From Acidimicrobiales bacterium (lineage in GTDB: Bacteria > Actinomycetota > Acidimicrobiia > Acidimicrobiales > MedAcidi-G1): a DNA stretch of 64,000 bases. Every line of letters starts with the position of its first letter. The first letter of the stretch is position 1. The notes beneath the pieces are model-generated. The model had not been told where the DNA came from, made no database searches, and was given only the letters and a program-made list of their open reading frames with translations. The stretch is taken from assembly GCA_028823445.1 (NCBI GenBank), contig JAPKBH010000006.1, positions 1 through 64,000 on the forward strand, read 5' to 3'. Below, piece by piece: positions 4,503 through 31,122 of the stretch. The position numbers were made by a program, and so were the translations under genes.

Positions 4503-5626
4503 GGTCGGTCCTCCGATGAAAGCTGCTCTCCGAAGAGCCCAGAAGGCTTAAACAAAAGCACCATCACCAATACGGTGAAAGCCACGGCGTCCTTTAACTG
4601 TGTCACCCCGGGAACCCCCAAAGGTTCAAGAATCATCATCGGGGCAATCGACTCTGCGGAACCCAAGGCGATTCCACCGGTCATGGCCCCTCCAAGGTTG
4701 CCGATACCCCCCACCACTGCAGCGGTGAAGGCCTTAATACCAGGCAAGAATCCGGTCATGGGGTGTACCGCCCGGAACAACAGGCCAAACATGATACCCG
4801 CTACGCCCGCCATGGCTCCACCTACCCCGAAGGTAGTCACGATGATGCGGTTTACGTTAATGCCCATAAGTGAAGCGATTTCTTTGTCTTCGGCCACCGC
4901 CCGCATGGCTTTGCCGGTTTTGGTGCGTTCCACCAAATACCAAAGACCCGCCATAGAAACCATGGTCACCGCCAACACCATTAGTTTGGTGCCAGAAATT
5001 TCAAAAGTAATAATTGAATACTGCTTCGACAACCACTCAGGAAGTTGCGGGTAACTCCGAGTAGATGGGCCGAAGAAGCCCAACACGGCGTTTTGCAAGA
5101 AGAACGACACCCCGATTGAAGTAATCAGGGGAATCAAGCGAGGCGAGTTACGCAACGGCCGGTAAGCAATGCGCTCCATCAAAATGGCCGTAGCGGTAGC
5201 TACCGTCGTGGCCAGCACCAACACAATGACCAAGCAAAGCAAAAAGTTGCTTTCCCACATGCCGTTAGCAGCGAACTTGTGTGAAGCGATATAGCCGGTA
5301 TAAACACTCACCATGAAGACTTCGCCGTGAGCGAAGTTAATAAACCCTAAAACGCCGTAAACCATGGAGTAGCCCAGCGCAATCAAACCATAAAGCACAC
5401 CCTGAGAGAGTCCCGAGATAACCAAACCTTTGAACTGGTCGGCGGTAAGCGCTCGAGCGCCTGGGTTACGCCACTGCGCAAAAGCATTAGAAGGGTCTAT
5501 TTGTTGAGCGATAAACGCCACTACCCCGATAACCACCAAACTCACTAACAAGGTTTTGATGACCATCAAAAAGCGGTCAACCAATGAAACCCGACTTATC
5601 GACTTTCGTTCCTGAACAGCAGTCAC
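4499..5626 (-). CDS. livH: Branched-chain/amine ABC transporter permease LivH
   Basis: This is a membrane permease of 375 residues. The LivH hallmarks are GLSQGVLYGLIALGYSMVYGVLGFINFAHGE near residue 75 and the loop MRAVAEDKEIASLMGINVNRI. An N-terminal extension of about 70 residues carries one extra hydrophobic segment (LLVSLVVIGVVAFIA). The start is GTG at 5624-5626, preceded by GGAGGG 11 bases upstream. It is the first gene of the livHMGF unit but lies downstream of the formate dehydrogenase genes on the same strand. The intervening 161 bases hold a potentially structured leader, so expression may be read-through, leader-controlled, or both. Confidence 0.9.
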   Translation of the reverse strand: MTAVQERKSISRVSLVDRFLMVIKTLLVSLVVIGVVAFIAQQIDPSNAFAQWRNPGARALTADQFKGLVISGLSQGVLYGLIALGYSMVYGVLGFINFAHGEVFMVSVYTGYIASHKFAANGMWESNFLLCLVIVLVLATTVATATAILMERIAYRPLRNSPRLIPLITSIGVSFFLQNAVLGFFGPSTRSYPQLPEWLSKQYSIITFEISGTKLMVLAVTMVSMAGLWYLVERTKTGKAMRAVAEDKEIASLMGINVNRIIVTTFGVGGAMAGVAGIMFGLLFRAVHPMTGFLPGIKAFTAAVVGGIGNLGGAMTGGIALGSAESIAPMMILEPLGVPGVTQLKDAVAFTVLVMVLLFKPSGLFGEQLSSEDRP

Positions 5627-5645
5627 TGTTTTATTACCCTCCGGC

Positions 5646-5750
5646 TACCCGATAGATGTACCGAACTTCTTTGTTCGGACCATTGAACCCGTCCTCTTTT
5701 GCTCAACTACTCGCCATCAAGCAATGTGACCCACGGCACCCTATCGGGTA
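5646..5750 (-). ncRNA. Candidate structured 5' leader RNA of livHMGF
   Basis: Read on the minus strand, TACCCGATAG (5750-5741) is perfectly complementary to CTATCGGGTA (5655-5646), closing a 105-base domain whose 3' strand ends three bases before the livH ribosome-binding site GGAGGG. Inside are a CCGAAC/GTTCGG hairpin with a six-base loop (5679-5662) and a TTGCTT/GAGCAA helix, giving a multi-branched shape like a cis-regulatory RNA. I do not recognise a known riboswitch class. Chance pairing is possible; no homologues could be aligned here. Confidence 0.35.
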
Positions 5751-5787
5751 AAGCAACAGCCCCACGGTAATTTCCGCAAAGTTTCGC

Positions 5788-6651
5788 TCATGGTTGAGCA
5801 TGCTGCCAACCGAAACGACCTTTGATGCAAAGGTGACCCGAAGTAACCGAGTGATCAGCCGGCGAGGTGACCTTAACAATACGGTCATCTTGCACATGGA
5901 GTTCCAAATTGCAGCCCACTCCACAGAAAGAACACACCGTGGTGGTTACCTCTTGAGACGCTTGATCCCAGGTGCCTTCTTGGCGCATGTCGTGTTCAGT
6001 TTTGAACACCAAAGCGCCGGTGGGGCAAACCCCAATACAGTTTCCGCAATAGACACATGCCGAATCAGGCAGTGTTTTATCGAACTCTGTGGAAATATGC
6101 GCATCAAAACCACGGCCTGCCGTAGCTATGGCAAAGGTTTGTTGGGCGTCATCTCCGCAGGCTTCCACGCACTTGTAACACAAAATGCATCGCTCGTAAT
6201 CTCGAACATAAAGGTCATCTTCTACCTTTACCGGTTGAGCCACCGTGGCTCTTTCCCCAACCGGACCCATGCGGTCCGGGTCGGCGCCGTAATGCTCCAT
6301 CCAGGCCAAGACTTCAGGTTCAGAGCGGTCCATTTCTACCGATGAAGCCAAAAGCTCATAAACCATGCGGCGACTGGTACGCACCCGTTCACTATCGGTC
6401 GCCACCACCATGTTTTCTTCTACCGGACGCGAACACGATGGCACCAAAATACGCGAACCTTCCACTTCAACTACGCACACCCGACACACGTTGACTGGCG
6501 TCAAGTTGGCTGCCCAACACAACGTTGGGGTATCGATTCCTTCTTTAGTGCAAGCATCCAAAATAGTTGAACCCTCCGGAACCCGTACCTCTTGCCCATC
6601 GATAGTGCACGACACCAAGGGTCGTGGCGCATTTACTGGTGTTTCGTTCAT
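5788..6651 (-). CDS. Formate dehydrogenase iron-sulfur protein: detached N-terminal region of FdhA
   Basis: This 287-residue protein has three parts. First is a plant-type [2Fe-2S] ferredoxin domain (Cys45, 56, 59, 73). Next are two 4Fe-4S motifs (CILCYKCVEAC near residue 155 and CVYCGNCIGVC near 200). Last is the Mo-proximal [4Fe-4S] domain CSFCGVGC with GHLCIKGRFGW, after which it stops within five residues. In ordinary NAD-dependent FdhA these parts are the N-terminus of the catalytic chain. Here the rest of that chain is the selenoprotein gene two genes upstream, and the two pieces join at exactly the domain boundary. The start overlaps the FdhB stop by four bases. Its likely role is electron transfer from the Mo site to the FdhB clusters. 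Confidence 0.88.
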   Translation of the reverse strand: MNETPVNAPRPLVSCTIDGQEVRVPEGSTILDACTKEGIDTPTLCWAANLTPVNVCRVCVVEVEGSRILVPSCSRPVEENMVVATDSERVRTSRRMVYELLASSVEMDRSEPEVLAWMEHYGADPDRMGPVGERATVAQPVKVEDDLYVRDYERCILCYKCVEACGDDAQQTFAIATAGRGFDAHISTEFDKTLPDSACVYCGNCIGVCPTGALVFKTEHDMRQEGTWDQASQEVTTTVCSFCGVGCNLELHVQDDRIVKVTSPADHSVTSGHLCIKGRFGWQHAQP

Positions 6652-8438
6652 TGAGTTACCTCCAACAAGCCCAAGGCCATGGCTGAGCGCACGGCCGACG
6701 CAGCGGCCTGGCCGAGACCACAGATAGACGCATCTTTCATTACCATTTCAAGGTCGCCAAATAACGCCTCATCGGTGGGCAGGGCTTTGCCTTTACCCAA
6801 GCGAACCAACACCTCTTCTTGGCGCACCGTCCCAACCCGGCAAGGCACACATTGGCCACAAGACTCATCACGAAAGAACTGAGCAATGCGTCGCACCGTG
6901 TCTACCAAGTCGTCTTGGGCCGTAAAGACCATGACTACCCCGGAGCCCAAAGAAACCCCGGCGGCTCGGGTGTCTTCCAAGGTAAGGGGTAAGTCCAATT
7001 GCTCAGGGCCCACAAAACTGCCGGCCGCTCCCCCCAACAAGACCGCCCGGATGCTGGCCTCGTCGGCCACCCCACCGGCGGCCTCAATGACCTGACGCAA
7101 GGTCACCCCAAACTCGTGTTCATACGTGCCGGGGTTTGCCACCCGGCCACTTAGGCAAAACAAGCGGGTACCCGGAGAACCTTGGGTGCCCGAAGCGGCA
7201 TAATCCGCCCCACCAAGGCGCACGATAGGTAACACGTTGAGCAGGGTCTCTACGTTGTTGATTGCTGTTGGTTCGCCAAACAAGCCGTGAGTAGTAGGAA
7301 ACGGTGGCTTGTTGCGCGGCTCACCCCGGAACCCTTCAATGGAATTAAACAATGCCGTTTCTTCACCACAGATATAGGCCCCTGCACCAAGACGCAGCGT
7401 TACCGTAAATTTGTGGCCAGAACCTGCCACATCATCACCTAAAAGCCCAGCAGTATTAGCTTGGTTAATGGCTCCTTGTAGGCGTTGTGCCGCCACTGGG
7501 TACTCGCCCCGTAAATAAATCCACCCTTGTTCGGCGCCCATTGACACGCCAGCAATAGTCATCGCTTCGAGCAAGGCAAACGGGTCACCCTCCATGACCG
7601 TGCGGTCCTTGAAGGTTCCAGGTTCTGATTCATCGGCGTTACACACCACATGTCGCGGGCGACCCTGCTGGTCGGCTACGGCTCGCCATTTTATCCCGGT
7701 CGGAAAAGCCGCTCCGCCGCGCCCTGAAAGCCCGGCGGTAGTTATTTCTTCAATAACCCGATCGCCACCAAGTTCTAAGGCTGTGGTGAGCGCTCGGTAG
7801 CCGCCGTGCTCTCGGTAACTCTCAAGAGACTGCGGGTCCACCAACCCAATACGACCCAGCAGTGGCAAACCCTCTTGACCTTGCTGAGGAAGGATCACCG
7901 AAGCGGCGGACTCTTGAGCGCCCAACGCTGCTTCTACGTTTTGCTTAGTGGCTGCCACCACAGAGAGGTCTTGTTGCCCGATGCGTTGCACCAACACTGC
8001 CGGGCCTCGTTCACATTGGCCCAAGCATGGGCTTGCTTTTACCTGGTGGCCGCCCGCCGCAAGGTCATCCATAAGCTCGGTGGCGCCAAATAACCGGCAA
8101 GCCACGTCATCGCATACATGGATCAGATCATTGTCTTCTGGGCTCTCTTGGCCCAACAAATGGTAAAAAGTAGCCACCCCGTACGCCTCAGCCGGCGGCA
8201 CTTCAAGCATCCGGCAGACATAGTCAAGCCCCCCAGGGCTCACCCACCCAGCAGCATTTTGCAAGGCATGCAGAGCGGGCAACAACAAGGTGCGGTGCTG
8301 GTCAGCCCGTTGACGGCCGCCCACCACGTAGCGCTCATCAAGATGCAAGGTGGCCGGACCCATTAAGGCCACCACCTCATCGACCGCTTGCTTTTCAGCG
8401 TCCGTCGGAGTCTCGGTACTAAAACGAAGGTCAGGCAT
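6648..8438 (-). CDS. fdhB: NAD-linked formate dehydrogenase beta subunit (NuoE-NuoF fusion)
   Basis: This 596-residue diaphorase subunit passes electrons from the formate dehydrogenase to NAD+. The N-terminal NuoE-like thioredoxin-fold [2Fe-2S] domain has Cys109, 114, 138 and 142 (C-x4-C and C-x3-C). From about residue 200 follows the NuoF-like FMN/NADH domain, with GLSGRGGAAFPTG, CGEETALFNSIEG and RNKPPFP. A C-terminal [4Fe-4S] motif reads ESCGQCVPCRVG. I chose the ATG at 8438 (GGAG seven bases upstream, eight-base overlap with the catalytic gene) over a TTG 15 bases earlier. It sits between the catalytic gene and the detached iron-sulfur gene of the same enzyme. Confidence 0.9.
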   Translation of the reverse strand: MPDLRFSTETPTDAEKQAVDEVVALMGPATLHLDERYVVGGRQRADQHRTLLLPALHALQNAAGWVSPGGLDYVCRMLEVPPAEAYGVATFYHLLGQESPEDNDLIHVCDDVACRLFGATELMDDLAAGGHQVKASPCLGQCERGPAVLVQRIGQQDLSVVAATKQNVEAALGAQESAASVILPQQGQEGLPLLGRIGLVDPQSLESYREHGGYRALTTALELGGDRVIEEITTAGLSGRGGAAFPTGIKWRAVADQQGRPRHVVCNADESEPGTFKDRTVMEGDPFALLEAMTIAGVSMGAEQGWIYLRGEYPVAAQRLQGAINQANTAGLLGDDVAGSGHKFTVTLRLGAGAYICGEETALFNSIEGFRGEPRNKPPFPTTHGLFGEPTAINNVETLLNVLPIVRLGGADYAASGTQGSPGTRLFCLSGRVANPGTYEHEFGVTLRQVIEAAGGVADEASIRAVLLGGAAGSFVGPEQLDLPLTLEDTRAAGVSLGSGVVMVFTAQDDLVDTVRRIAQFFRDESCGQCVPCRVGTVRQEEVLVRLGKGKALPTDEALFGDLEMVMKDASICGLGQAAASAVRSAMALGLLEVTQ

Positions 8439-10374
8439 GGGTAGTCTCCGCAATTTTTTCTACCCGAATAGCAGTCGCCTTAAACTCGGCGGTTCCTGAC
8501 TTCTTGTCGTAGGCATCGCTAACCAGTTGGTTGATGTCGGCAAGTTCGGGAAAATGATAGGTCGTGAAAGCCAACCCGGTTTGCAGCGTGGCATCAATGC
8601 TTATCGTCATCTGAATTGACCCCCGTCGCGAGGAAACCTGCACTCGGTCGCCGGCTTGTACCCCAAGGTGCAAAGCATCTGAAGCAGAGAGTTCCAAGGC
8701 CTCACCCGAACGAATGGGTGAGTTGAAACTCTCGGTTTGCACCCCGGTGTTAAACGAATCAAGCGCTCGGCCGGTAGTGAGCCGCAAAGGAAACTCTTCG
8801 GAAAGCGCATCAATCGGTGGTCGATGCTCCACGCACGAGAAAGGAGCCCGCCGACCACTAATGGGCCGTTCCCAAAGCCGCCCGTGTAAGAAACGACTCC
8901 CCGGGTGGTCTTCGTCAGGGCATGGCCACTGCAAGCCACCTTCATCGGCTAACCGTTGCCACGACATACCACCATGCATGGGTGATAACGCACGGAGTTC
9001 ATCCCAAAGTTCTTCTGCTGTGGGGTACCCCCAGTCGGCGGCCCCCATGCGTTGAGCCAAATCAGCAATAATGTCAATTTCTTGGCGAGCCTGCCCCGGA
9101 GGGCTAATGGCCGCTCGCGTCCTTTGCACTCGGCGCTCGCTAGAAGTTACTGTCCCGTCTGACTCGGCCCACCCTAAAGCAGCTGGAAAAACAACATCTG
9201 CAAGTTGCGCCGTGCGGGTCATGAACACGTCTTGAACCACCAATACGTCAAGGCCTTCCAGCATGGCTCGCGCATGTTTGGCATCTGCCTCGGAATCAGC
9301 AGGGTTTTCACCGACGACCCACACCGCTCTTAACTCTCTGGTGGCCATGGCTTCAAACATTTCTGTCAGGTTTAGCCCAACTTGGCCAGTAAACGTGGTG
9401 CCCCATGCCTCTTCAAATTTTTTCCGTAGGGCATCATTGTCAACATCTTGGAATCCGGGGAGCTTGTTGGGCAAAGCCCCCATGTCTCCCCCGCCTTGCA
9501 CATTGTTTTGCCCCCGTAGCGGCACCAACCCCGACCCCCAACGACCGACGTGGCCGGTAAGCAGCGACAGGTTGGACAGAGCCAGCACATTGTCGACCCC
9601 GGTGTGGTGTTCAGTGATGCCGAGCGTCCACAAGAGTTGAGCGGTAGCCGCTTTGGCGTAACCATGGGCAAGGTCAGCAATTGCTTCGGCCGGCACCCCG
9701 GTTACTTCAGCGGTGTACTCAAGCGTCCAGGGTTCTACAAAAGCAGCAAAGGCCTCAAAACCTTCAGTGGCCTGTTCAACAAACTCCTCGTTGACTAACC
9801 CGGCGTGGATGATCTGGCGAGCCACCCCGTTGGCCAAGGCAATGTCGGTCCCTACGCTTAGGCCCAGCCAGGCATCGGCGAATTTGGCCGAGGCAGTACG
9901 GCGTGGGTCGATGACCCACATACGCGCTCCATTTTTTATGCCTTTTAAGAGGTGGTGGAAAAAAATAGGGTGGGCGGCCCGAGCATTGGAGCCCCACAGC
10001 ACAATGGCTTCCGTTTCTTCAATTTCTTCATAAGAGGACGTCCCGCCCCCTGCTCCGAATACTGTCGCCAGACCGACGACGCTAGGAGCGTGTCAAGTTC
10101 GATTACAACTATCAATGTTGTTGGTGCCAATGACTGTTCGAGCAAATTTCTGGACGGCGTAGTTCACTTCATTAATAGTTTTTGAGCAACTGAACACGCC
10201 AAAAGAATCGGGACCATGTTGCTCAATAACCGACCGAAAACCTGCGGCAGCGCGGTCTAGTGCCTCGTCCCATGTTGCTGCACGCAACGCACCGTTTTCT
10301 CGCACCATCGGGGTGGTTAAACGCTTACCCATAATCTTCCAATCTTCGTTGACCGGCGGGCCGAGGCCCTTCAA
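8431..10374 (-). CDS. Selenocysteine-containing formate dehydrogenase catalytic subunit (Mo-bisPGD), with in-frame UGA
   Basis: Two stretches usually read as separate ORFs are one frame, broken only by TGA at 10093-10095. The reading around it is NNIDSCNRT-U-HAPS, which matches the Mo-ligand region of formate dehydrogenases (E. coli FdhF has CARV-U-HGPS). The next residue is the conserved His. Further motifs are RGQNNVQGGGDMGALP and a C-terminal molybdopterin-dinucleotide-binding domain. The product is about 647 residues from TTG 10374, or 633 from ATG 10332 (GGAAG four bases upstream), with the U at codon 94 or 80. The chain lacks the usual N-terminal [4Fe-4S] domain; that domain is encoded by the last gene of the operon. 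It oxidises formate to CO2. A real nonsense mutation is the alternative, but the codon's exact position and the SECIS-like hairpin argue against it. Confidence 0.85.
10052..10095 (-). promoter_or_regulatory. SECIS-like hairpin directing selenocysteine at the FDH UGA
   Basis: Read on the minus strand after TGA, GTCGTC (10080-10075) pairs with GGCGAC (10069-10064) around a GGTCT apical loop. An outer GCTCC/GGAGC helix (10089-10085 with 10056-10052) encloses it. The GGTCT loop begins 18 bases after the TGA. By my recollection this is the same loop sequence and spacing as in the E. coli fdhF SECIS. Because the loop also encodes the conserved Gly-Leu, part of the resemblance could come from protein conservation. 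Confidence 0.75.
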
Positions 10375-10398
10375 TGTTGGCCGAAGACTAGCGCAGAA

Positions 10399-11646
10399 TT
10401 AGACCCTCGGGGCTTTTTTCTCGCTCCCGAAAGAAGAAAAAACTTGATCTTGTCTCTCACGGCGTTCCAAGAGACGAATGCTGGAACGTAGTTCGTCTCG
10501 ATCGAGGTAGCAGCCCCGCAAATGCCGGTGGCCGCTCCCCGTTTCAAAAGCCGTACGGGCATGCAAAGCTCGGCGATTATCAAAAATTAAACAATCCCCT
10601 GGCTCAAGACGAAAATGAATTTGAAAACGTTCGTGGTGGCTGGTTTTTTCAAACAACTGGTAAGCGGCATACATTTCTTCTACCAAATCAAACGGGGCAT
10701 TCAACGGGCCTCGCAACCAATTTCCGGCCCGAATCTCAAAAAGATGACCATCAGCATCCAAGCCAATCATGGGGGCTCGCCACCGATAATCGCTGCTGCG
10801 ACTGCGGTTGGCAAAATCCCAGGGCACGGTGGTTAGCAAAGCAAACGCCCGGGGGTCTACTTGGCGAATTTCTTCCGCCACCCGAAACCCATCTACCAAA
10901 AAACTGAACCCACCCTCCACGCTGTTGGCCATGCAATGCAACAACTGCAACCCTGGTTGATATTCCCGTGTTGGGAGATCCGTATGCGGAGGAAGCCCAA
11001 TGCCAGTGTTGGAGTTGCTCACCGGGTCGCCTTCTATCATCACATCGAAGAATCCACCAAAGTTGGTGTGGCGCACCACCCCAATGCGATCCGCTACTTC
11101 TCCTACCGCCTCGGTATTTGTGGGCACCCCGTGTAGCAAAGCACAAGCATCGTCTCGAATAGCCTTTAACCACGCCAATTCAACAGTTTTGTCAACGCAC
11201 ACCTCTGACCAAGCAAACCCGTCTGGCCTCTCGCGGGTTGAGGCATCCCACAAGGTGGGGGCAACCCAACGGTCAGTTCGACTCTGCGCTGAGGAGCAAT
11301 AGGCCCGCAACCATCCCGGATGGAAAATGCTTTGATGTTCTTCAGGCGCCCAGTCCACTACCAAAGCGCCTTCTTTGTTTAACCTCACCGAAGCCGGGTG
11401 TAAATCATCTGGGGCCTGAGAAACTTCGTAGGTTTGTTCCAAGGTGTAGTGGTGCACACAACACGGGCAGTTGTCGCGTAGCCACAATGCATGAAACTCG
11501 CTGACCCGGCCGTCGCTCCACTGCAGCGTTACTTTGCGGCCAACCACTACCGCCTCGGTTATCTGGTGTTCCATGGGATAAAGCGAAAAGTCCCCGGTGG
11601 GCAGGTTATGGGGCGATGGCAAGGCGGCCCGGTCTTCTGGTTCCAT
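10399..11646 (-). CDS. Gamma-butyrobetaine hydroxylase-like 2-oxoglutarate/Fe(II) dioxygenase
   Basis: This 415-residue TauD/BBOX-type dioxygenase has an N-terminal DUF971-like small domain (residues about 30-110) with the zinc-type cysteine cluster DNCPCC, then the jelly-roll catalytic domain. Iron ligands are the HTD of LPPHTDLP and the distal His in RALHART. An Arg for 2-oxoglutarate follows. The family converts gamma-butyrobetaine to L-carnitine or hydroxylates trimethyllysine. Neighbouring carnitine dehydrogenase (nine bases upstream) and BKACE support gamma-butyrobetaine. The Cys spacing (C-x-C-C) is more compact than the C-x-C-x2-C usually seen in BBOX. Its stop lies in the same frame as the following FDH gene, 24 bases before that gene's possible TTG start. 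Confidence 0.85.
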   Translation of the reverse strand: MEPEDRAALPSPHNLPTGDFSLYPMEHQITEAVVVGRKVTLQWSDGRVSEFHALWLRDNCPCCVHHYTLEQTYEVSQAPDDLHPASVRLNKEGALVVDWAPEEHQSIFHPGWLRAYCSSAQSRTDRWVAPTLWDASTRERPDGFAWSEVCVDKTVELAWLKAIRDDACALLHGVPTNTEAVGEVADRIGVVRHTNFGGFFDVMIEGDPVSNSNTGIGLPPHTDLPTREYQPGLQLLHCMANSVEGGFSFLVDGFRVAEEIRQVDPRAFALLTTVPWDFANRSRSSDYRWRAPMIGLDADGHLFEIRAGNWLRGPLNAPFDLVEEMYAAYQLFEKTSHHERFQIHFRLEPGDCLIFDNRRALHARTAFETGSGHRHLRGCYLDRDELRSSIRLLERRERQDQVFSSFGSEKKAPRV

Positions 11647-11654
11647 GCGTTCTC

Positions 11655-12593
11655 CTAATCACCTTCTCTTAAGGCTTGCAAAATTTTGACCAAACCACGG
11701 TCTCTTTCCTCAACCAAGTCGGCCACCGTCCGCCCTGCCGCCTCATCAAGGCAGCCTTCAACTACTGCGTCACGAAGTTCAGTCGTAAGTTCCGGAGCCA
11801 CCAACCTGGTCCACGGCGACTGCAGGGACGGCCCAAAATGGTCCAGCATGTGAGCCATACCGCCTTCGCCGCCCGCCAAATGAAAAGTCAACATGGGTCC
11901 CATCAATGCCCACCGCAGTCCCGGGCCAGCAGTAATCGCTAAATCCAATTGTTCGACCGTGGCTTCACCGTTGGCCACCATGTGGAGCGCCTCACGCCAC
12001 ATCGCTTCTTGCAGGCGGTCCGAAACAAACCCTTCGACTTCTTTATCTAAGCGCATCACCGTTTTTCCGGTGGATTCATAAATTTTTACCGCTCGGTCCA
12101 TAGCGGCACTGGAGGTTTGCGGGCCCGCCACCACCTCTACCAGTGGCAACAAATACACCGGGTTAAAGGGATGCCCCACCACCACGCGTTCCGGGGCATG
12201 CCCGCATTGTGTCGTCATATCGCTAATCAGATACCCCGAGGTGGATGAAGCAATTATTACTTCCGGGTCGCATAACTGGTCGAGTTCAGCCAGCAAGCCT
12301 TGCTTCAACTCCAAGCGTTCGGGAGCGTTCTCTTGCACCAGCAGGGCTCCGCTTACCGCCTCTTCCGTGGTGGCACAAAAAGTTACCCTGCTGCGGTCAG
12401 CACCCGCAGCCAGACCCAGTTGTTCCATGGCCGGCCACGCTAAATCTAAAAACTCTTGGAGGCGCTGCTCGCCTCCGGGGGCGGGGTCCCAAGCCTGCAC
12501 GCCGTAGCCCTGGCCTAAAAAATGGGCCGCCCAACCACACCCAATAACCCCCATGCCAATGCAGGCCACGGTTGACGAAGGTTGATTGTTCAT
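11655..12593 (-). CDS. cdhA: L-carnitine dehydrogenase (3-hydroxyacyl-CoA dehydrogenase family)
   Basis: This 312-residue NAD-dependent dehydrogenase has the Rossmann motif GMGVIGCGWAAHFLGQG, in which the GxGW variant is characteristic of carnitine dehydrogenases. Other motifs are AWDPAPG, NAPERLELKQ, SSTSGYLISDM and GHPFNPVYLLPLVEVV. It oxidises L-carnitine to 3-dehydrocarnitine. Some relatives carry a fused C-terminal thioesterase; this one ends after the 3HCDH domain, so betainyl-CoA hydrolysis must come from another gene, and none is seen nearby. Its start overlaps the BKACE stop by four bases. The neighbours (BKACE before, BBOX-like after) make the assignment firm. Confidence 0.88.
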   Translation of the reverse strand: MNNQPSSTVACIGMGVIGCGWAAHFLGQGYGVQAWDPAPGGEQRLQEFLDLAWPAMEQLGLAAGADRSRVTFCATTEEAVSGALLVQENAPERLELKQGLLAELDQLCDPEVIIASSTSGYLISDMTTQCGHAPERVVVGHPFNPVYLLPLVEVVAGPQTSSAAMDRAVKIYESTGKTVMRLDKEVEGFVSDRLQEAMWREALHMVANGEATVEQLDLAITAGPGLRWALMGPMLTFHLAGGEGGMAHMLDHFGPSLQSPWTRLVAPELTTELRDAVVEGCLDEAAGRTVADLVEERDRGLVKILQALREGD

Positions 12594-13486
12594 CGGTTTA
12601 GTTGCAACGTTTCACGAGCCTCGGCCGCTGTTTGCACCCGGGCCCCCATGAGCTCAATGATTTTCACCGCCTTAGCTACCAACTGTTCGTTGGTGGCCAA
12701 CACGCCACGCTCTAGGTAAAGGTTGTCTTCGAGGCCCACCCTTACGTGGCCGCCCAACATGATGGACTGAGCCACCATAGGCATTTGCATCGCCCCCAGA
12801 CCGAAAGAGGTGAACTCGGCTTGCTCGGGTAAACGGTTTACCATGGCTTGCAAAATACCTACATCCATTGGGGTGCCGTAAGGAATGGACAAGCAAAGTT
12901 GCAGCCAGTACGGCGCATCAACCAGGCCCTCGTCAATCATGGTTTCAGCGAACCACAAGTTCCCTGTGTCAAATACTTCAAGCTCCGGTTTTACCCCGAG
13001 TTCACGCACTCGTTCGGCCATAATGCGCAACATGTCGGGTGTTGAAACATAAACCGCATTCCCGTCACCAAAGTTGAGCGAACCGCAATCCAACGAGCAA
13101 ATATCTGGGCGTATAGCTTCCACATGAGCTAACCGCTCGGCCCCACCCACCAAATCGGTCCCGGGTTGCCAATCCATGGGGTCATGGTCGGGGCCTACGT
13201 TGAGGTCTCCACCCATACCGGCAGTCAAGTTGACCACCACTTCTTGGTTCTCGGCTCGGATGCGCTCTACCACCTCTTGGTAATAAGCAACCGTGCGGGC
13301 ACCTTGGCCTGTTTCGAGATTTCGTACGTGGCAATGCACAATGGCTGCTCCGGCAGCGGCTGCCGCTAAAGCCGAATCGGCAATGGCTTCGGGGGTTACC
13401 GGCACGTGAAGGCTTTTACCCGTGGTGTCTCCCGACCCAGTTACCGCACATGAAATAATGACTTTCCGGTTCATGGACCGACCCAT
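12590..13486 (-). CDS. cdhB: BKACE (DUF849) 3-dehydrocarnitine cleavage enzyme
   Basis: This 298-residue beta-keto acid cleavage enzyme has a TIM-barrel fold. The zinc-binding HCHVRN motif lies near residue 50, with VVNLTAGMG, SLDCGSLNFG and GLGAMQMP further on. In carnitine clusters this family condenses 3-dehydrocarnitine with acetyl-CoA to give betainyl-CoA and acetoacetate. First gene of the leftward carnitine-formate dehydrogenase operon: GAGGAG stands five bases before the ATG, and a 153-base divergent region separates it from serA. A second in-frame ATG four codons in has no better ribosome site. Other BKACEs act on 3-keto-5-aminohexanoate; the adjacent carnitine dehydrogenase decides the substrate. 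Confidence 0.88.
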   Translation of the reverse strand: MGRSMNRKVIISCAVTGSGDTTGKSLHVPVTPEAIADSALAAAAAGAAIVHCHVRNLETGQGARTVAYYQEVVERIRAENQEVVVNLTAGMGGDLNVGPDHDPMDWQPGTDLVGGAERLAHVEAIRPDICSLDCGSLNFGDGNAVYVSTPDMLRIMAERVRELGVKPELEVFDTGNLWFAETMIDEGLVDAPYWLQLCLSIPYGTPMDVGILQAMVNRLPEQAEFTSFGLGAMQMPMVAQSIMLGGHVRVGLEDNLYLERGVLATNEQLVAKAVKIIELMGARVQTAAEARETLQLNR

Positions 13487-13639
13487 CAGAACTCCTCACT
13501 TTAGGGGCTTTCACCGAAGCGAAACCCATTCCTCTTGTCTTTGTTCGCTCGAGTGTCTAGAGTTTCCCTAACCCGATCCGCAGAGACTACCCTGCCCCCC
13601 GCATCACGTGTGCCGGGAGTGGCGTGTTAGAGGAACCTT

Positions 13640-14845
13640 ATGAAAATTCTTTTCGCAGACGCTCTTCCAGAATCCTACATTGATGCCCTCAAGCAAAGGG
13701 GGGACAGTTGCCTTGTCAGCGCAGACTTGGGCGCTGATGACCTTTCCGGCGCACTCGACGGCGTGGATGTCTTAGTGGTTCGTAGCACCAAAGTTACGGC
13801 AGCCGCCATTGACAGCGCCAACCAGTTGGCGCTTATTGTGCGGGCCGGTGCGGGCACCAACACCATTGATTGTCAAGCGGCAGCCGATGCCGGGGTGTAC
13901 GTCTGCAACGTACCGGGCACTAACTCGGTGGCCGTAGCAGAACTCACCATGGGGTTACTAGTAGCCATCGATCGCCATATTGCTCAAGCCACCGCAGACC
14001 TTCGCAATGGGCAATGGAACAAGAAGTCTTACAGTAAAGCCGATGGCCTACTCGGCAAAACCATGGGCATTATCGGTCTCGGAGAAATCGGCCTTGCCGT
14101 GGCCGAACGGGCCCGAGCCTTTGGCATCACTGTGGTAGCAGAACGAAAAACCGGCCGAGGCGCCGACGTGGAAATGCGTATTCGTTCTCTCGGCATTCGG
14201 CTCGTTGATGACCTTCCAGCGTTACTTGACGAATCTGACATTGTTTCGCTCCATGTCCCCGGAGGGCAAGCCACCCAAGGGTTGGTCGACGCCGACTTTT
14301 TGGGCCGCATGAAAGACGACGCTATTTTGCTCAACACCAGCCGAGGAGAGGTCGTGGATGAAGAAGCTCTACTTCATGCGCTAGAAACCACCGGCTTACG
14401 CACTGGTCTCGATGTCTTCTGCAACGAACCGGGTTCAGGCACTGGCACCTTTACTTCGACCATTGCTGCTCACCCCAAGGTTATTGGCACCCACCATATT
14501 GGGGCTTCCACTCAACAAGCCCAAGATGCCACCTCAGCGGGCACCGTTGATGTTATTGAGGCTTACCGCAGCGGTGAACTGATGAACTGCGTCAACATGA
14601 CTGATGCTCGGGTTGGTACTTACACCATCACCATTCGCCACTTTGACCAGGTTGGCGTACTAGCCGAAGCCTTACGAGTGCTGAGGAACGCCCGGGTAAA
14701 CGTACAAACCATGCAAAACAAAGTGTTTCTTGGTTCGAACGCTGCGGTGGCTTTAATAGATGTGGGCGGTGAGATTACCGACGAAATTTCCCAAGAACTC
14801 AACGAACTTGACAATGTTATTCAAGTTCAGATTCGCAAGCGATAA
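13640..14845 (+). CDS. serA: D-3-phosphoglycerate dehydrogenase-type oxidoreductase with ACT domain
   Basis: This 401-residue D-2-hydroxyacid dehydrogenase performs the first step of serine synthesis (3-phosphoglycerate to phosphohydroxypyruvate, NAD). The nucleotide fold motif is GIIGLGEIG near residue 150. Catalytic Arg, Glu and His are visible in NTSRGEVV, CNEPG and GTHHIGAST. A C-terminal ACT domain (about 325-401) would provide allosteric control, typically by serine. The gene is followed two bases later by a DUF1015 gene, a common pairing. Serine and glycine supply links it loosely to the C1 genes. The 153-base divergent region upstream holds no clear copy of the TTCCCAC palindrome. Confidence 0.85.
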   Translation: MKILFADALPESYIDALKQRGDSCLVSADLGADDLSGALDGVDVLVVRSTKVTAAAIDSANQLALIVRAGAGTNTIDCQAAADAGVYVCNVPGTNSVAVAELTMGLLVAIDRHIAQATADLRNGQWNKKSYSKADGLLGKTMGIIGLGEIGLAVAERARAFGITVVAERKTGRGADVEMRIRSLGIRLVDDLPALLDESDIVSLHVPGGQATQGLVDADFLGRMKDDAILLNTSRGEVVDEEALLHALETTGLRTGLDVFCNEPGSGTGTFTSTIAAHPKVIGTHHIGASTQQAQDATSAGTVDVIEAYRSGELMNCVNMTDARVGTYTITIRHFDQVGVLAEALRVLRNARVNVQTMQNKVFLGSNAAVALIDVGGEITDEISQELNELDNVIQVQIRKR

Positions 14846-25690: not shown

Positions 25691-26338
25691 ATGACCTCCG
25701 AAAGCCCAGCCGGGCACATGACCGGCGAACGCACGCTCATTGTGGCTTGTGGGGCCTTATCGCGTGAACTCTTGCAGGTGATAGAGGTCAACAACCTGCC
25801 GGGGGTAGAAATAGCGTGCTTGCCCGCCTCTTATCACAACACTCCAGACAAAATTCCTGACGCCGTGGCCCAGCGAGTACGTGCCGCCGCCGGACTTTAC
25901 GACACCATCTACGTGGGTTATGCCGATTGCGGCACCGGCGGCCGCCTCGACGCAGTCTGCGAAGAACTCGGCGTAGAACGCCTCCCTGGTGCCCACTGCT
26001 ACGAATTTTTTGCCGGCCAACAAACCTTCGCCCGACTACACGACGCCGAACCAGGCACCTTTTACCTCACCGATTTTTTAGTCAAACACTTTGACCGCCT
26101 GGTCATCAAAGCCCTCTGGCTAGACACCCACCCCGAGTTGCTCAGCGATTACTTTGGCAACTACACCCGTTTGGTTTACCTCGCACAAACCGATAACCCA
26201 GACTTGGTGGCTCAAGCCGAAACCGCCGCCCAACGGCTTGGCTTACGTTTTGAACTTTGCCCCACCGGCTACGGAGAACTTGCCACCAGCGTGGTTGAAC
26301 TGAGTTCCCCCAACCGGCAACCCATAGGAGCGTATTAA
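25691..26338 (+). CDS. DUF1638 domain protein associated with corrinoid methyltransferases
   Basis: This 215-residue soluble protein fits DUF1638 by its opening LIVACGALSRELLQV, LPASYHNTPDKIPDAV, YVGYADCGTGGRLD and the pair GAHCYEFFAG. Conserved Cys residues (CGAL, ADCGTGG, AHCYEFF) and a His could bind a metal or a corrinoid-linked ligand, but this is speculation. It lies nine bases after the corrinoid gene and four before the 'virulence factor' gene. From recollection, DUF1638 genes often accompany corrinoid proteins and MttB-type enzymes in other bacteria and archaea. Its function in methyl transfer is not known to me. Confidence 0.8.
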   Translation: MTSESPAGHMTGERTLIVACGALSRELLQVIEVNNLPGVEIACLPASYHNTPDKIPDAVAQRVRAAAGLYDTIYVGYADCGTGGRLDAVCEELGVERLPGAHCYEFFAGQQTFARLHDAEPGTFYLTDFLVKHFDRLVIKALWLDTHPELLSDYFGNYTRLVYLAQTDNPDLVAQAETAAQRLGLRFELCPTGYGELATSVVELSSPNRQPIGAY

Positions 26339-26342
26339 CACC

Positions 26343-26660
26343 ATGGCCACCGCATTGGTAACTATCTTTTGGCGCGATATCCCAGCGCAGATAACCGCAC
26401 AAAAAGGCCGCACCCGAGAAAAAGGGCTCCTTGACGCACGTTTTCAACTAGCCATTGACCAAGCGGCCATGGTGGCTGGCCTTACTGGGACCGACGATTA
26501 CGTCACCCAATGGCGCCGAGAAAGTCAGCCTTGTAGTGCTGACTTGGCCCAAGAAGTCGCTGACGCCCTGGTTCGTGTTGACATCGATTACCCGGCCGAA
26601 CGAATCAAAAAACTTGTACGCTCCGGCGGCCTTGAACCAACAGAAGATCAAAACTCTTAA
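26343..26660 (+). CDS. Small 'virulence factor' family protein (PF13769-like), function unknown
   Basis: This 105-residue protein begins with a conserved-looking VTIFWRDIPAQITAQKGR and has DARFQLAIDQAAMVAGLTGTDDY around residues 38-60, matching the small family labelled 'virulence factor' that I associate with corrinoid-MttB loci in marine bacteria. It has no signal peptide, no membrane segment and one cysteine. It is in the middle of the corrinoid operon: four bases after DUF1638 and 12 before the methyltransferase. The name is historical; nothing here points to virulence. An accessory role in corrinoid loading or methyl transfer is the contextual guess. Confidence 0.7.
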   Translation: MATALVTIFWRDIPAQITAQKGRTREKGLLDARFQLAIDQAAMVAGLTGTDDYVTQWRRESQPCSADLAQEVADALVRVDIDYPAERIKKLVRSGGLEPTEDQNS

Positions 26661-26672
26661 GAGGAAAACCTC

Positions 26673-27563
26673 ATGACCGACACCATTCTTAGTTCAGCCA
26701 GCAAAGAGGTCGCTATCGGCTTCGGTCGGCCATTCGTCATGATTGGCGAACGCATTAACCCCACCGGGCGCAAACTGTTGGCCGAAGAAATGAAAAACGG
26801 CGACTTCAGCCGAGTGGCCGCCGACGCTATAGCCCAAACCGAAGCTGGCGCCCACATGCTCGACGTCAACGCCGGCATTCCCCTCGCCGACGAGCCCGCC
26901 CTATTAGCCCAAGCTATTCAACTCGTACAATCGGTAACCGACCTGCCCATCTCCATCGACTCCTCCATCATCGAGGCCCTCGAAGCGGGCCTGGGGGTCT
27001 ATCAAGGAAAAGCCTTAGTGAACTCGGTGACCGGGGAAGAAGAAGTCATGGAGCGTGTGTTGCCTTTAGTAGCCCGCCACGGGGCCGCCGTGGTAGCAAT
27101 CTCCAACGACGACACCGGTATTTCCGAAGACCCCAACGTACGTTTTGCCGTAGCCAAGCGCATTGTTGAACGGGCCGCCGACCATGGAATCCCCGCCTGT
27201 GATGTGGTCGTTGACCCTCTGGTAATGCCAATCGGCGCCATGGGCACCGCCGGCCAGCAAGTTTTTGCTTTGGTGCGGCGCCTCCGTGAAGAACTCAAGG
27301 TCAACACCACCTGCGGGGCTTCTAACGTCAGTTTCGGACTACCCAACCGGCACATAATAACCGGCACCTTTTTGGCCATGGCCATGAGCCACGGCATGAC
27401 CTCGGCCATCATGAACCCCCTGCACGCCGAAGTTAAATCAGCGGTAATGGCCGCCGACGTCTTAGCAGGCGCCGACGCCGACTGCGCCGCATGGATCCGC
27501 ATTAACCGCGACCCCGACGCCCCGGCACGCGAACGCCGCGGGGGGCGTCGTCGCTCAGCCTGA
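26673..27563 (+). CDS. Methyltetrahydrofolate:corrinoid methyltransferase
   Basis: This 296-residue pterin-binding TIM barrel has GERINPTGR near residue 25, the conserved MLDVNAG, SIDSS, NSVTGEEE and CGASNVSFGLPNR near residue 230. It moves the methyl group between the Co-methyl corrinoid protein and THF (MtgA/AcsE/MetH pterin domain family). In this operon it should accept methyl from the corrinoid and make methyl-THF. AGAGGA precedes the ATG. The C-terminus is basic and Arg-rich (RERRGGRRRSA), as is the C-terminus of the next protein. It is one base from the start of the activator gene. Confidence 0.92.
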   Translation: MTDTILSSASKEVAIGFGRPFVMIGERINPTGRKLLAEEMKNGDFSRVAADAIAQTEAGAHMLDVNAGIPLADEPALLAQAIQLVQSVTDLPISIDSSIIEALEAGLGVYQGKALVNSVTGEEEVMERVLPLVARHGAAVVAISNDDTGISEDPNVRFAVAKRIVERAADHGIPACDVVVDPLVMPIGAMGTAGQQVFALVRRLREELKVNTTCGASNVSFGLPNRHIITGTFLAMAMSHGMTSAIMNPLHAEVKSAVMAADVLAGADADCAAWIRINRDPDAPARERRGGRRRSA

Positions 27564-27564
27564 C

Positions 27565-29571
27565 ATGGCCACTGACGGCGCCAACGACCACCTCGTTGTT
27601 TTTACCCCCTCGGGGCGTCGCGGCCAAATAACCGACGGCACCACCGTGCTTGATGCGGCTCGACAACTCGGCGTAGACCTTGACTCGGTCTGCGGTGGCC
27701 GAGGCATTTGCGGACGTTGCCAGGTAGAACCCATGTTTGGTGAGTTTTCCAAACATGGAATCACGGCACAACCAAAAAACCTTTCGGTAGCGGCCAGCAT
27801 GGAAGCCGAATACCACGGGCGTCGCCCCTTATCAAGTCAAAATAACTTGGCGTGCGCCGCCTCAGTCTGCGGCGATCTCATTATTGATGTCCCCGCCGAA
27901 AGCCAAGTACACCAACAGGTCATTCGCAAAGAAATCGACCTTGGCCGTCTTGAACTTGACCCGGTACTGGTGTTTCGCCTCATTGAGATTGACACTGAAA
28001 AAACCGTGGTTAGTTCAGAACTCATCCTTGAAGCTTTGGCAACTCAATGGGACCTCACCCATTTATCGATGCACCCCTCAGTGCTTACTCAACAAGAAAC
28101 AATTTCTTCCGACCTTTGCACGGTGGCCATCAGAGATGACCAGCAAATAGTTGCTCTCTGGCCCGGGTTGAAAGATCTCGCCCTCGGGGTGGCCGTAGAC
28201 GTCGGTTCAACCACCATTGCCGCCCATTTGTGCGACTTGGCTACCGGGGAAGTACTGGCCACCGCCGGCACCATGAACCCACAAATTCGCTTTGGCGAAG
28301 ACCTCATGAGCCGGGTCTCTTATGTCATGATGAACCCCGGCGGGGAGACCGAAATGACTACCGCAGTACGGCAATCCCTCAACGACTTGGTGAGCGAACT
28401 TTGCCAACAAGTAGACGCCACGCCTCAAGATGTTTTAGAGATGGTGCTGGTCGGCAACCCAGTTATGCACCACTTGTTTTTAGGAATTGACCCAGTGCCT
28501 CTTGGTCAAGCACCGTTTATTTTGGGCATCGAAAAAGCAGTCGACCGGGCCCCCCAAGACCTTGACCTTCATATTCATCCGGCGGGGCGCATCCATGTGT
28601 TGCCTTGCATCGCCGGCCACGTGGGAGCCGACACGGCAGCGGTTATTTTGTCTACCCGCCCCCAAGACAACCCCAAAGATCAAATCACCTTGGTGGTTGA
28701 TGTGGGCACCAACGCAGAGATCCTTTTGGCGGGCCATGGCCGTTTGTTGGCGGCCTCTAGCCCGACCGGGCCAGCCTTCGAAGGGGCGCAAATCACCGCC
28801 GGCCAACGAGCCACCCCGGGGGCCATTGAACGAGTACGCATTAACCCCGAAACCGGCGAACCCCGCATTCGCGTACTAGGGGTTGACCCATGGTCTAACG
28901 AACCCGGCTTTGCCGAAGCCGTAGCCGCCACCGGGGTAACCGGTATTTGCGGTTCCGGAATCATCGAAGTAGTGGCCGAACTATTTCTGGCCGGACTCAT
29001 GAACTCAGACGGGGTAATTGGCGGGGCAGGTACTCGCCCGAGTTCACGCATTGAGCCCGACGGCCGCACCATGCGCTATGTCTTGCACGACCCACAAGAC
29101 GGCACTCCGCCTTTGGTTATTACCCAAAACGATATTCGAGCCATCCAGTTAGCAAAGTCTGCGCTCTATGCCGGTATTCGCTTGCTCATGGACCACCTTG
29201 AAGTAGATCACCTGGACCACATTCAATTAGCCGGCGCCTTCGGGAGCCACATTGACACTTTGCGGGCCACCGTTTTGGGGCTCATCCCCGACTGCCTGCC
29301 CGACCAAGTGCGTGCGGTGGGCAATGCCGCCGGTGCTGGCGCGGTCATCGCTTTGCTTTCCGGTGCCGCCCGGCAAGACATCCAACACATAGTTACCGAA
29401 ATAGAAAAAGTTGAAACAGCTACCGAACCCGCTTTTCAAGCGCACTTTATTGATGCCATGGCTATTCCCCATCGCACCGCCCATTACCCCGGCCTCTCCA
29501 CCCGCATGACCTTGCCTGAACCACCTATTACCGAAACCACCCCAGGGCGCCGTCGTCGACGTACCCGCTGA
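27565..29571 (+). CDS. Corrinoid reductive activator (RACE protein, ASKHA ATPase with [2Fe-2S] domain)
   Basis: The 668-residue protein opens with a plant-type [2Fe-2S] ferredoxin (Cys43, 49, 52 and 97), then a linker, then an ASKHA-type actin-like ATPase domain (DUF4445) with phosphate loops VDVGSTTIAAHL near residue 212 and VVDVGTNAEILL near 376, and SSPTGPAFEGAQITAG. RACE proteins use ATP to reduce accidentally oxidised Co(II) corrinoid back to Co(I). Such a repair step is essential in an aerobe. The electron donor is not encoded nearby. The C-terminus is Arg-rich (GRRRRRTR). Order corrinoid-MeTr-activator-MttB supports one functional module. Confidence 0.9.
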   Translation: MATDGANDHLVVFTPSGRRGQITDGTTVLDAARQLGVDLDSVCGGRGICGRCQVEPMFGEFSKHGITAQPKNLSVAASMEAEYHGRRPLSSQNNLACAASVCGDLIIDVPAESQVHQQVIRKEIDLGRLELDPVLVFRLIEIDTEKTVVSSELILEALATQWDLTHLSMHPSVLTQQETISSDLCTVAIRDDQQIVALWPGLKDLALGVAVDVGSTTIAAHLCDLATGEVLATAGTMNPQIRFGEDLMSRVSYVMMNPGGETEMTTAVRQSLNDLVSELCQQVDATPQDVLEMVLVGNPVMHHLFLGIDPVPLGQAPFILGIEKAVDRAPQDLDLHIHPAGRIHVLPCIAGHVGADTAAVILSTRPQDNPKDQITLVVDVGTNAEILLAGHGRLLAASSPTGPAFEGAQITAGQRATPGAIERVRINPETGEPRIRVLGVDPWSNEPGFAEAVAATGVTGICGSGIIEVVAELFLAGLMNSDGVIGGAGTRPSSRIEPDGRTMRYVLHDPQDGTPPLVITQNDIRAIQLAKSALYAGIRLLMDHLEVDHLDHIQLAGAFGSHIDTLRATVLGLIPDCLPDQVRAVGNAAGAGAVIALLSGAARQDIQHIVTEIEKVETATEPAFQAHFIDAMAIPHRTAHYPGLSTRMTLPEPPITETTPGRRRRRTR

Positions 29572-29583
29572 AAGGAACCACTC

Positions 29584-31122
29584 ATGAGTGAAACCCCCCG
29601 TCGCCGATCAGGTGGCCGCTCGGCCCGCCAAGCTGCTCGTAGCGAAAATACGGCCGAGGTCAAGCCGTACCTGACTCGATCTATCGCCCCAGTGGAGATA
29701 GTCCCCGAAGAGGGTTTGCTGCAAATTGAGTACAACGCTGACACCATTTTGGAAGAAATTGGTATTGACTTTCGCGACTACCCCTCGGCACTAGCTTTAT
29801 TAAAAAACGCTGGTGCTTCTGTAGATGGCGAAAGGGTGCGTTTCCCTCGGGGCATGTGTCGCGAAATCATTACCGCTACTGCACCTGCGGTGTACACCCA
29901 TCACGCTCGCAACCCGGCACGAAGCGTGCAAATTGGTGGCGACGCCACGGTGTTCGTTCCCGCTTATGGGCCGCCTTTCGTGCGCGACCTCGACCAAGGC
30001 CGGCGCTACGCCACCATTGAAGATTTTCAAAACTTCGTCAAACTGGCTTACCTCAGCCCCCACATGCATTCCACAGGGGGCACGGTATGCGAACCGGTAG
30101 ATATACCAGTTTCTCATCGACACCTCGACATGGTTTACGCCCATTTACGTTACGGCGATAAACCATTCATGGGTTCGGTGACCGCTGCTGAGCGAGCGCA
30201 AGATTCTATCGACATGGCCAAGCTGGTCTTTGGCGACGAGTTCGTAAGCCAGAACACCGTAATGACTAGCCTCATCAATGCTTCGTCGCCTCTGTCTTGG
30301 GACGCCACCATGCTGGGAGCAGCCGAGGCCTACGCCAAGAGCATGCAAGCCACCGTGATCAGTCCCTTTATTTTGGCGGGCGCCATGGCCCCGGTCACCG
30401 TGGCTGGCGTAGCAGCCCAAACCTTGGCCGAGGCCTTAGCGGGCATGACTTTCGTACAATTGGTGAACCCTGGAGCCCCGGTGGTCTTTGGTTCTTTTGC
30501 TTCGTCAATGTCTATGCAAACTGGTGCCCCCACTTTTGGAACTCCCGAACCGGCGTTGGTGCTGTTTACCATCGGTGCTTTAGCTCGGCGCCTCGGGGTG
30601 CCATTTCGTTCTGGCGGAAGCCTCTGTGGGTCCAAGATTCCCGATGCCCAAGCAGCGGCCGAAAGCATGGCCACCCTTTTGCCATCCTTATTGGGTGGGG
30701 TAAACTTTATGTTGCATTCTGCGGGTTGGCTCGAAGGCGGGTTGAGTATGGGGTACGAAAAATTCATCATCGATGCCGACCAGTGCGGTTTGATGTCTAA
30801 GTTGGTGGCCGGAGTTGACCTCAGCGAAAATGGCCAAGCCATGGATGCCATTCGTGAAGTGGGCCCGGGGCAACACTTCTTAGGGGCTGCGCACACTTAC
30901 GCCAACTTTGAAACAGCCTTCGCTCGGTCAGAAATTGCCAACAACGACAGCTATGAGCAATGGGAAGAAGATGGGAGTTTGGATGCCGCTCAGCGGGCCA
31001 ACGCTCTGTGGAAAAAGCAGTTAGCCGAATACGAAGCTCCCGCTCTTGATACATCTATCGATGAGGCTTTGTTAGATTTTATGGGCCGGCGTAAAGAAGA
31101 GATTCCTGACAGTTTTGCTTAA
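29584..31122 (+). CDS. mttB: MttB-superfamily quaternary-amine methyltransferase, non-pyrrolysine type
   Basis: This 512-residue protein is a TIM barrel of the trimethylamine methyltransferase superfamily (GACVD-like region LKNAGASVDGERVRFP, MHSTGGTVCEPVD, FGSFASSMSMQTGAPTFGTPE, YEKFIIDADQCG). Archaeal MttB uses pyrrolysine at an in-frame TAG; this gene has no internal TAG, which places it with the glycine-betaine/proline-betaine branch (MtgB-like). The demethylated substrate is most likely glycine betaine, given carnitine breakdown genes on one side and dimethylglycine dehydrogenase nearby. Carnitine, gamma-butyrobetaine or proline betaine remain possible. The first 30 residues are Arg/Ser-rich, longer than in many relatives. 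GAAAGGA precedes the ATG. Confidence 0.88.
   Translation: MSETPRRRSGGRSARQAARSENTAEVKPYLTRSIAPVEIVPEEGLLQIEYNADTILEEIGIDFRDYPSALALLKNAGASVDGERVRFPRGMCREIITATAPAVYTHHARNPARSVQIGGDATVFVPAYGPPFVRDLDQGRRYATIEDFQNFVKLAYLSPHMHSTGGTVCEPVDIPVSHRHLDMVYAHLRYGDKPFMGSVTAAERAQDSIDMAKLVFGDEFVSQNTVMTSLINASSPLSWDATMLGAAEAYAKSMQATVISPFILAGAMAPVTVAGVAAQTLAEALAGMTFVQLVNPGAPVVFGSFASSMSMQTGAPTFGTPEPALVLFTIGALARRLGVPFRSGGSLCGSKIPDAQAAAESMATLLPSLLGGVNFMLHSAGWLEGGLSMGYEKFIIDADQCGLMSKLVAGVDLSENGQAMDAIREVGPGQHFLGAAHTYANFETAFARSEIANNDSYEQWEEDGSLDAAQRANALWKKQLAEYEAPALDTSIDEALLDFMGRRKEEIPDSFA

Follow-up and report, generated by a model that had tools for sequence, protein, structure and literature searches.

This study deals with a gene group on the window, i.e. 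the 64,000 nucleotides (positions 1 to 64,000) of contig JAPKBH010000006.1 from an Acidimicrobiales bacterium (assembly GCA_028823445.1), which very likely encodes a cytoplasmic, NAD+-linked formate dehydrogenase of three polypeptides that contains selenocysteine (Sec) and receives its Fe4S4 domain and a lysine in trans. Three genes follow each other on the minus strand. The first (8431..10332) codes for the catalytic subunit of 633 amino acids. The second (6648..8438) codes for a fused FdsG+FdsB (NuoE+NuoF-like) NAD+/FMN diaphorase subunit of 596-601 amino acids (Pfam 2Fe-2S_thioredx, Complex1_51K, SLBB and NADH_4Fe-4S), and the third (5788..6651) for a separate protein of 287 amino acids, which represents the N-terminal part of the alpha subunit (Pfam Fer2_4, Fer4_Nqo3 and, at residues 234-285, Molybdop_Fe4S4). 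The ATG of the fusion gene at 8438 overlaps the end of the catalytic gene (the listing of open reading frames, ORFs, starts it at TTG 8453), and the third gene (6651-5788) starts in an ATGA overlap (6651-6648) with the gene preceding it. These tight overlaps suggest that the translation of the three genes is coupled.

The catalytic gene is found by standard ORF calling as two pieces on the minus strand, 10374-10093 (93 amino acids) and 10002-8431 (523 amino acids). Both belong to one frame, with a single TGA between them at 10095-10093, and if this codon is translated as a residue, the chain reads DSCNRT-U-HAPSVVGLATVFG and ends at the terminal TGA at 8433-8431. The UGA codon (10093..10095, minus strand) takes the position of the Mo ligand, in the context NRT-U-HAPS (continuous ...DSCNRT-U-HAPSVVGL...), and residues 80-81 (U-H) were invariant in an alignment of eight rows. 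Pfam assigned Molybdopterin and Molydop_binding to this chain, the domains for the bis-molybdopterin guanine dinucleotide (bis-MGD), and no Pfam Fe4S4 domain. An earlier note on this DNA had described a continuous frame that is broken by the TGA exactly at the Mo-ligand codon, with histidine next, and had expected two truncated genes in a routine annotation; the frame and the homologues agree with the former, and the latter is what ORF calling yields here. With regard to the gene extent of 8431-10374 given there, the frame and the 3' end hold, whereas the start has to be moved: translation probably begins at ATG 10332 (MGKRLTTP, 633 amino acids, Sec80), since in most relatives the alignment sets in only at about query residue 22-26. 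In the relatives, a start codon is usually found a few codons ahead of RLTTP. A start at TTG 10374 is still possible.

Homologues of the catalytic chain were searched in 296 genomes of the class, of which 125 gave a match at 1e-80. Membership in the family with the split subunit (identity of at least 60% plus a TGA, partial matches counted) was assigned to 95 of the 296 genomes. The codon was compared in 100 class loci, consisting of 93 loci from 91 of these 95 genomes and seven from named records (Acidimicrobiales, Candidatus Microthrix, Acidimicrobiaceae, Acidimicrobiia and Ilumatobacter nonamiensis). The count excludes 15 duplicate fetches, the two fused relatives L138 and L139, and L029, whose sequence begins after the codon; the loci of genomes G050, G090, G164 and G280 were left out as well, and their matches also contain TGA. 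The aligned codon was TGA in all 100 loci and encoded cysteine in none, and a TGA was present within the match in all eight genomes of the source genus. The comparison of TGA and TGC among homologues of the clade, which the earlier note had proposed as a check, thus gave TGA throughout. An extra TAA is also present in the genus mates G655, G658 and G659. Two TGA codons occur in the matches of G074, G094, G180, G117, G034 and G247; the second one was taken as the terminal stop, because alignments ending at query residue 649 show the Sec TGA only. The remaining extra stops lie close to the C-terminus in L050 and L124, and in L022, L043 and the latter's duplicate L068 they precede the probable start. 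When the residues after Sec were used as query against a plasmid collection, 1435 records matched, all with less than 60% identity, and no close relative was detected.

The two pieces obtained by ORF calling could also be regarded as the truncated remains of a dying gene, in which the TGA arose by nonsense mutation or by a sequencing error. The conservation of the TGA in the class loci and in the source genus refutes this explanation, whose probability is next to nil. The frames are otherwise open, and the compensatory changes in the downstream hairpin and the complete Sec machinery, both described in the following, speak against it as well.

The putative selenocysteine insertion sequence (SECIS) hairpin is located at 10052..10089 (minus strand). 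RNA folding gave a two-part hairpin (-16.7 kcal/mol) with the lower stem GCUCC/GGAGC and the upper stem-loop GUCGUC-GGUCU-GGCGAC at 10080-10064, and the apical GGTCT begins at 10074, 18 nucleotides past the TGA. The same spacing from TGA to GGTCT exists in E. coli fdhF. Among 95 different sequences obtained from the 100 class loci, GGTCTG was kept in every one, though GGT makes up only 18.7% of the glycine codons and CTG 35.4% of the leucine codons in the same genes. Standard pairing was found in 566 of 570 cells of the upper stem and in 452 of 475 cells of the lower stem; as a control, the 3' side was slid by 1-3 bases, which gave 27-70% pairing. Two pairs vary on both sides. The third base of codon 5 and the third base of codon 9 form C-G in 88 and G-C in seven sequences, and the first base of codon 6 and the second base of codon 9 form G-C in 93 and A-T in two, in both cases without mismatch and with none of 2000 shuffles being as good, in a shuffle test which ignores the relatedness of the sequences. 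The two A-T pairs occur in L114 and L123, which are placed apart in the tree, and two-sided stem changes are also present in distant relatives (GTT/GTA in L138; GTG/GCC in L162, L163 and L173). The varying lower-stem pair (third bases of codons 2 and 13) is weaker (74/95; 114 of 2000 shuffles as good), and the remaining stem pairs are nearly invariant and hence little informative. Position and fold agree with the earlier note, which had recognised the two-part hairpin with its GGTCT loop 18 bases after the TGA.

The source genome (G000; 1.93 Mb, 69 contigs, 95% complete) contains the genes required for Sec insertion. One tRNA-Sec was detected (63.4 bits, over the Rfam cut-off; called tRNA-SeC with anticodon tca by ARAGORN), together with adjacent selB and selA (267.8 and 393.9 bits) and selD (359 bits), all over their cut-offs, as the earlier note had predicted with a full Sec system. 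The selD gene (G000:C38:40067-40987, L020) itself has a TGA in frame at the codon of its catalytic residue (HGAG-U-GCK), which makes SelD, too, a very probable selenoprotein. The fdhD gene is intact (149.6 bits; cut-off 140.9), an apparent TAA being its natural end. Within the class, 87 of the 95 genomes with the enzyme possess a tRNA-Sec over the cut-off, and seven of the other eight possess selB over the cut-off. The assumption that selenoproteins are sparse in this type of actinomycete does not apply to this class: tRNA-Sec over the cut-off occurred in 193 of the 296 genomes (93 of 148 genera), many of them from one small-genome genus, and the enzyme in 95. In 106 of the 296 genomes, tRNA-Sec is present and this enzyme is absent. 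Many very small genomes (0.6-1.1 Mb) in the genus g65 (family f29) retain a high-scoring tRNA-Sec, at about 71-78 bits, and lack this enzyme.

Outside the class, 396 genomes were searched, and 33 matches reached an identity of about 60% or higher. In the genus g170, all four loci (G413, G443, G599 and G630) have TGC or TGT instead of the Sec codon. These genomes (6-10 Mb) are listed as 100% complete, and none of the four has selB over the cut-off. The hairpin is changed in all four loci, with GGG or GGA as loop and 3-5 of the six upper pairs left, whereas in the same scoring GGTCTG with 6/6 upper pairs was found in 17 of 17 Sec loci, split and fused. The Cys loci form one clade within the split family (SH-aLRT 100). 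In G630 (TGT) a SelB-like match of 228.3 bits is retained (cut-off 242.25), and the switch from Sec to Cys may possibly be recent there.

It is conceivable that the UGA is decoded as another amino acid, by near-cognate readthrough or by a genome-wide reassignment. This explanation is nevertheless highly improbable. TGA terminates all three formate dehydrogenase genes and also the gene of a beta-keto acid cleavage enzyme (BKACE) in the window, and the recoding of UGA is therefore local. The position is held by Sec or Cys in the protein family, tRNA-Sec, selA, selB and selD are present, and the loss of the GGUCU loop in the four Cys loci goes along with genomes without SelB over the cut-off. Taken together, the codons of the homologues, the covariation of the SECIS and the Sec genes of the genome support the claim of the earlier note that the locus encodes a Sec formate dehydrogenase.

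The earlier note had passed over a second property of this locus, namely that no Fe4S4 domain is present in the catalytic chain and that the gene 6651-5788 is probably required for the enzyme. In the model TIGR01591, the catalytic chain covers positions 52-672 of 672, and residues 238-285 of the 287-residue protein cover positions 1-48; a full-length match in one chain does not exist here, and the Fe4S4 domain and the lysine lie on the separate chain. Besides its 2Fe-2S and 4Fe-4S motifs, the 287-residue protein carries a C-terminal Fe4S4 domain (C240, C243, C247 and C275) with Lys277 in the motif CIKG, and from its position in this motif Lys277 would be equivalent to Lys44 of E. coli FdhF. 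According to PMC12176258, a [4Fe-4S] cluster next to the Mo is ubiquitous in Mo-dependent formate dehydrogenases, and within the catalytic subunit it is the first electron relay. The lysine is described there as strictly conserved, and at Lys44 of E. coli FdhF only arginine kept activity (7.1%).

Residues 13-222 of the 287-residue protein resemble HoxU and HydA. It could thus be merely a HoxU-like partner of the diaphorase, with the Fe4S4 domain as a relic, and the catalytic chain would use no proximal cluster or that of another protein. The AlphaFold models of the single chains, calculated from alignments of eight rows, were poor (mean predicted local distance difference test, pLDDT, 57.0 and 48.0) and leave room for this explanation. 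It is nonetheless unlikely. The four-Cys motif and C[IV]KGR[FY] are kept in all 44 N-terminal-part proteins, including the one in the window, with 5-38 residues following, and this is not expected of a drifting relic. The break between the chains falls between positions 48 and 52 of TIGR01591. In addition, the gene order catalytic subunit (C), FdsG-FdsB fusion (GB), N-terminal part (N) was constant in all 43 loci examined, i.e. in all 27 class loci that cover the complete stretch (the window among them) and in all 16 loci fetched out of the 33 outside the class. Among the loci from outside the class, the catalytic gene of L174 has a gap. In L029, an incomplete catalytic gene precedes the other two genes, and L027 ends too early.

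From the features of the three chains, we infer how a complex of them might be assembled and might operate. SelB and tRNA-Sec, acting at the hairpin immediately downstream, would insert Sec at the UGA of the catalytic mRNA, and Sec80 would ligate the Mo in a catalytic chain which is predicted to hold bis-MGD and no iron-sulphur cluster. The 287-residue protein may dock its C-terminal Fe4S4 domain onto this chain and would in this way supply both the first electron acceptor and the conserved Lys277 in trans. Electrons would then pass through the 4Fe-4S and 2Fe-2S clusters of the 287-residue protein to the FdsG/FdsB fusion and from there to NAD+. The formate would originate from the methyl groups of carnitine, betaines and trimethylamines, and genes likely to serve their catabolism surround the locus.

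A tree of 116 rows was calculated (117 loci were given, of which one was too short; L076-L079 and L174 were not given). The split family forms a single group of 110 rows (SH-aLRT 100). Its nearest fused relatives are L170-L172, which belong to one family, share 47-50% identity, stand just outside the split group and have the Fe4S4 domain directly upstream in frame. Other fused Sec chains stand further out on long branches, and the outgroup branches of the tree are long. A single gene break is the simplest reading. The gene order could have arisen by permutation of a GB-N-C operon, as represented by L138 (GB, then N and C in one frame), to C-GB-N, or an FdhF-type chain, whose nearest fused representatives are L170-L172, could have been recruited and joined to GB and N. 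It is likely that these enzymes represent a widespread actinobacterial class of Mo- and Sec-containing formate dehydrogenases with a two-piece active site in trans, which goes back to one ancestral break and was kept through the switch from Sec to Cys. L173 has its 2Fe-2S and Fe4S4 parts upstream of the catalytic part and widely separated from each other. Sec formate-dehydrogenase-like frames of about 1360-1440 amino acids were observed in other classes (G553, G579, G648, G358, G340, G314 and others) and may be much longer fused chains.

Upstream of the catalytic gene, three further genes are located on the minus strand. They encode a gamma-butyrobetaine-hydroxylase-like dioxygenase (10399..11646; Pfam TauD and GBBH-like_N; TIGR02409 345.9 bits, below the cut-off of 414.75), an L-carnitine-dehydrogenase-like protein (11655..12593; Pfam 3HCDH; NF005471 353.5 bits, below the cut-off of 414) and the BKACE mentioned above (12590..13486; Pfam BKACE, 317 bits). 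Further out, genes for ETF subunits, a DAO+GCV_T demethylase-like protein, a pterin-binding protein, RACo, DUF1638 and an MTTB methyltransferase (743 bits) were found. The likely function of the enzyme is the NAD+-linked oxidation of formate, and these neighbours point to the methyl groups of carnitine, betaines and trimethylamines as its likely source. At 25691-31122, the DUF1638, pterin-binding, RACo-type activator and MTTB methyltransferase genes stand side by side and look like a corrinoid trimethylamine/betaine demethylation set. An ORF of 599 amino acids at 16065-17864 matches models of aminodeoxychorismate synthase component I (residues 25-379) and of the PRK07546 type (residues 380-583); it looks like a PabB-PabC fusion, if the C-terminal part is PabC, as we presume.

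Mo- and W-containing formate dehydrogenases can be reversible, and the best match of the catalytic chain in the Protein Data Bank (PDB) is FdhF of HDCR (7qv7), which would fit an enzyme that mainly reduces CO2 and produces formate. Such a direction is quite unlikely in view of the NAD+ diaphorase subunit and of the demethylation and carnitine-type genes nearby. Moreover, FDH3 of Actinomycetospora chiangmaiensis goes with the removal of formate (PMC7176365). In that report, FDH3, consisting of FdhA3 (640 amino acids, with Sec), FdhB3 (614) and FdhC3 (316), is called cytoplasmic and NAD+-dependent, its proteins were detected by proteomics, and 0.11 uM selenite restored formate removal.

Several observations weigh against a three-polypeptide Sec formate dehydrogenase with this role. 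Both the incorporation of Sec and the complex have been deduced from sequence and not from protein. The folding energy of the hairpin was not better than chance when compared with shuffled sequences (z -0.66; 49 of 200 fold as well), and an Rfam scan of 5500-14000 at a permissive threshold returned two chance hits and no SECIS family; it is the comparison of sequences, and not the folding, that lifts the SECIS hairpin above chance. Genome G197 (88% complete) contains the enzyme and showed neither tRNA-Sec nor selB. The catalytic chain alone stays below the cut-off of TIGR01591 (650.3 vs 666.25 bits), and the poor AlphaFold models do not help the proposed docking. A. chiangmaiensis expressed FDH1, another Sec enzyme, besides FDH3 (PMC7176365), and the kinship to FDH3 is drawn from the subunit sizes and the text of that report. 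As for the role, a relative of at least one of the three upstream genes was found near the formate dehydrogenase in only six of 42 loci (L022-L026 and L060, with relatives of 3HCDH and BKACE), many of the others holding only about 2.5 kb upstream. In the tree, each of these six stands near the window. The link to carnitine may thus be lineage-specific, and probably the enzyme is general and the pathway local.

If the cluster and the lysine reside on another polypeptide than the Mo, then electron transfer, cofactor insertion and the role of the lysine become testable with two separately made proteins. In the genus g170, which has Cys and no SelB over the cut-off, nature has set up a comparison of the two residues in the same enzyme. 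Furthermore, wrong annotation of this selenium-dependent formate sink may be widespread among Acidimicrobiia and further actinobacteria, because ORF calling cuts the gene at the TGA and the read-through chain misses the cut-off of TIGR01591.

The structure PDB 6tg9, which we take to be the FdsABG-type NAD+ formate dehydrogenase of Rhodobacter capsulatus, resembles the locus in FdsG, FdsB, the N-terminal Fe-S domains of FdsA and the bis-MGD domains. Its FdsA is a single chain of 958 amino acids, whereas at the locus the chain is broken between the FdsA residues 303 and 308; the locus has the order C, G+B, N, contains Sec and lacks a single-chain FdsA of about 950 amino acids. E. coli FdhF (FDH-H) and L170-L172 share Sec and the bis-MGD domains with the locus, L170-L172 also GGTCTG with 6/6 upper pairs, but their Fe4S4 domain and lysine belong to the catalytic chain itself; within the 10 kb fetched for L170-L172, no match to FdsGB was found. 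The fused Sec FdsA-like chains L138 and L139 from the same class likewise possess Sec and GGTCTG with 6/6 upper pairs, but their N- and C-parts are joined in one frame, which in L138 follows FdsGB, and the identity is 40-43%.

With its three subunits of 640, 614 and 316 amino acids and Sec in the first, FDH3 of A. chiangmaiensis is similar in subunit sizes to the locus (633, 596-601 and 287 amino acids), but belongs to another lineage and another substrate context. The main text of PMC7176365 contains no hit for 4Fe-4S or iron-sulfur, and its passages on FDH3 do not mention that the catalytic chain lacks an Fe4S4 domain; judged by this likeness, FDH3 is very probably a published example of the split enzyme, whose split goes unremarked in these passages. 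PMC5029168 lists formate dehydrogenase alpha in 822 organisms, which ranks it first among the selenoprotein families tabulated there, and its main text gives no hit for Acidimicrobi or Ilumatobacter. The literature search returned no paper joining selenocysteine, formate dehydrogenase and Acidimicrobiia, and none that was recognised as dealing with a split catalytic subunit among the matches listed. Compared with these systems, a Sec formate dehydrogenase as such is of a known kind, and the two-piece catalytic subunit is the novel part.

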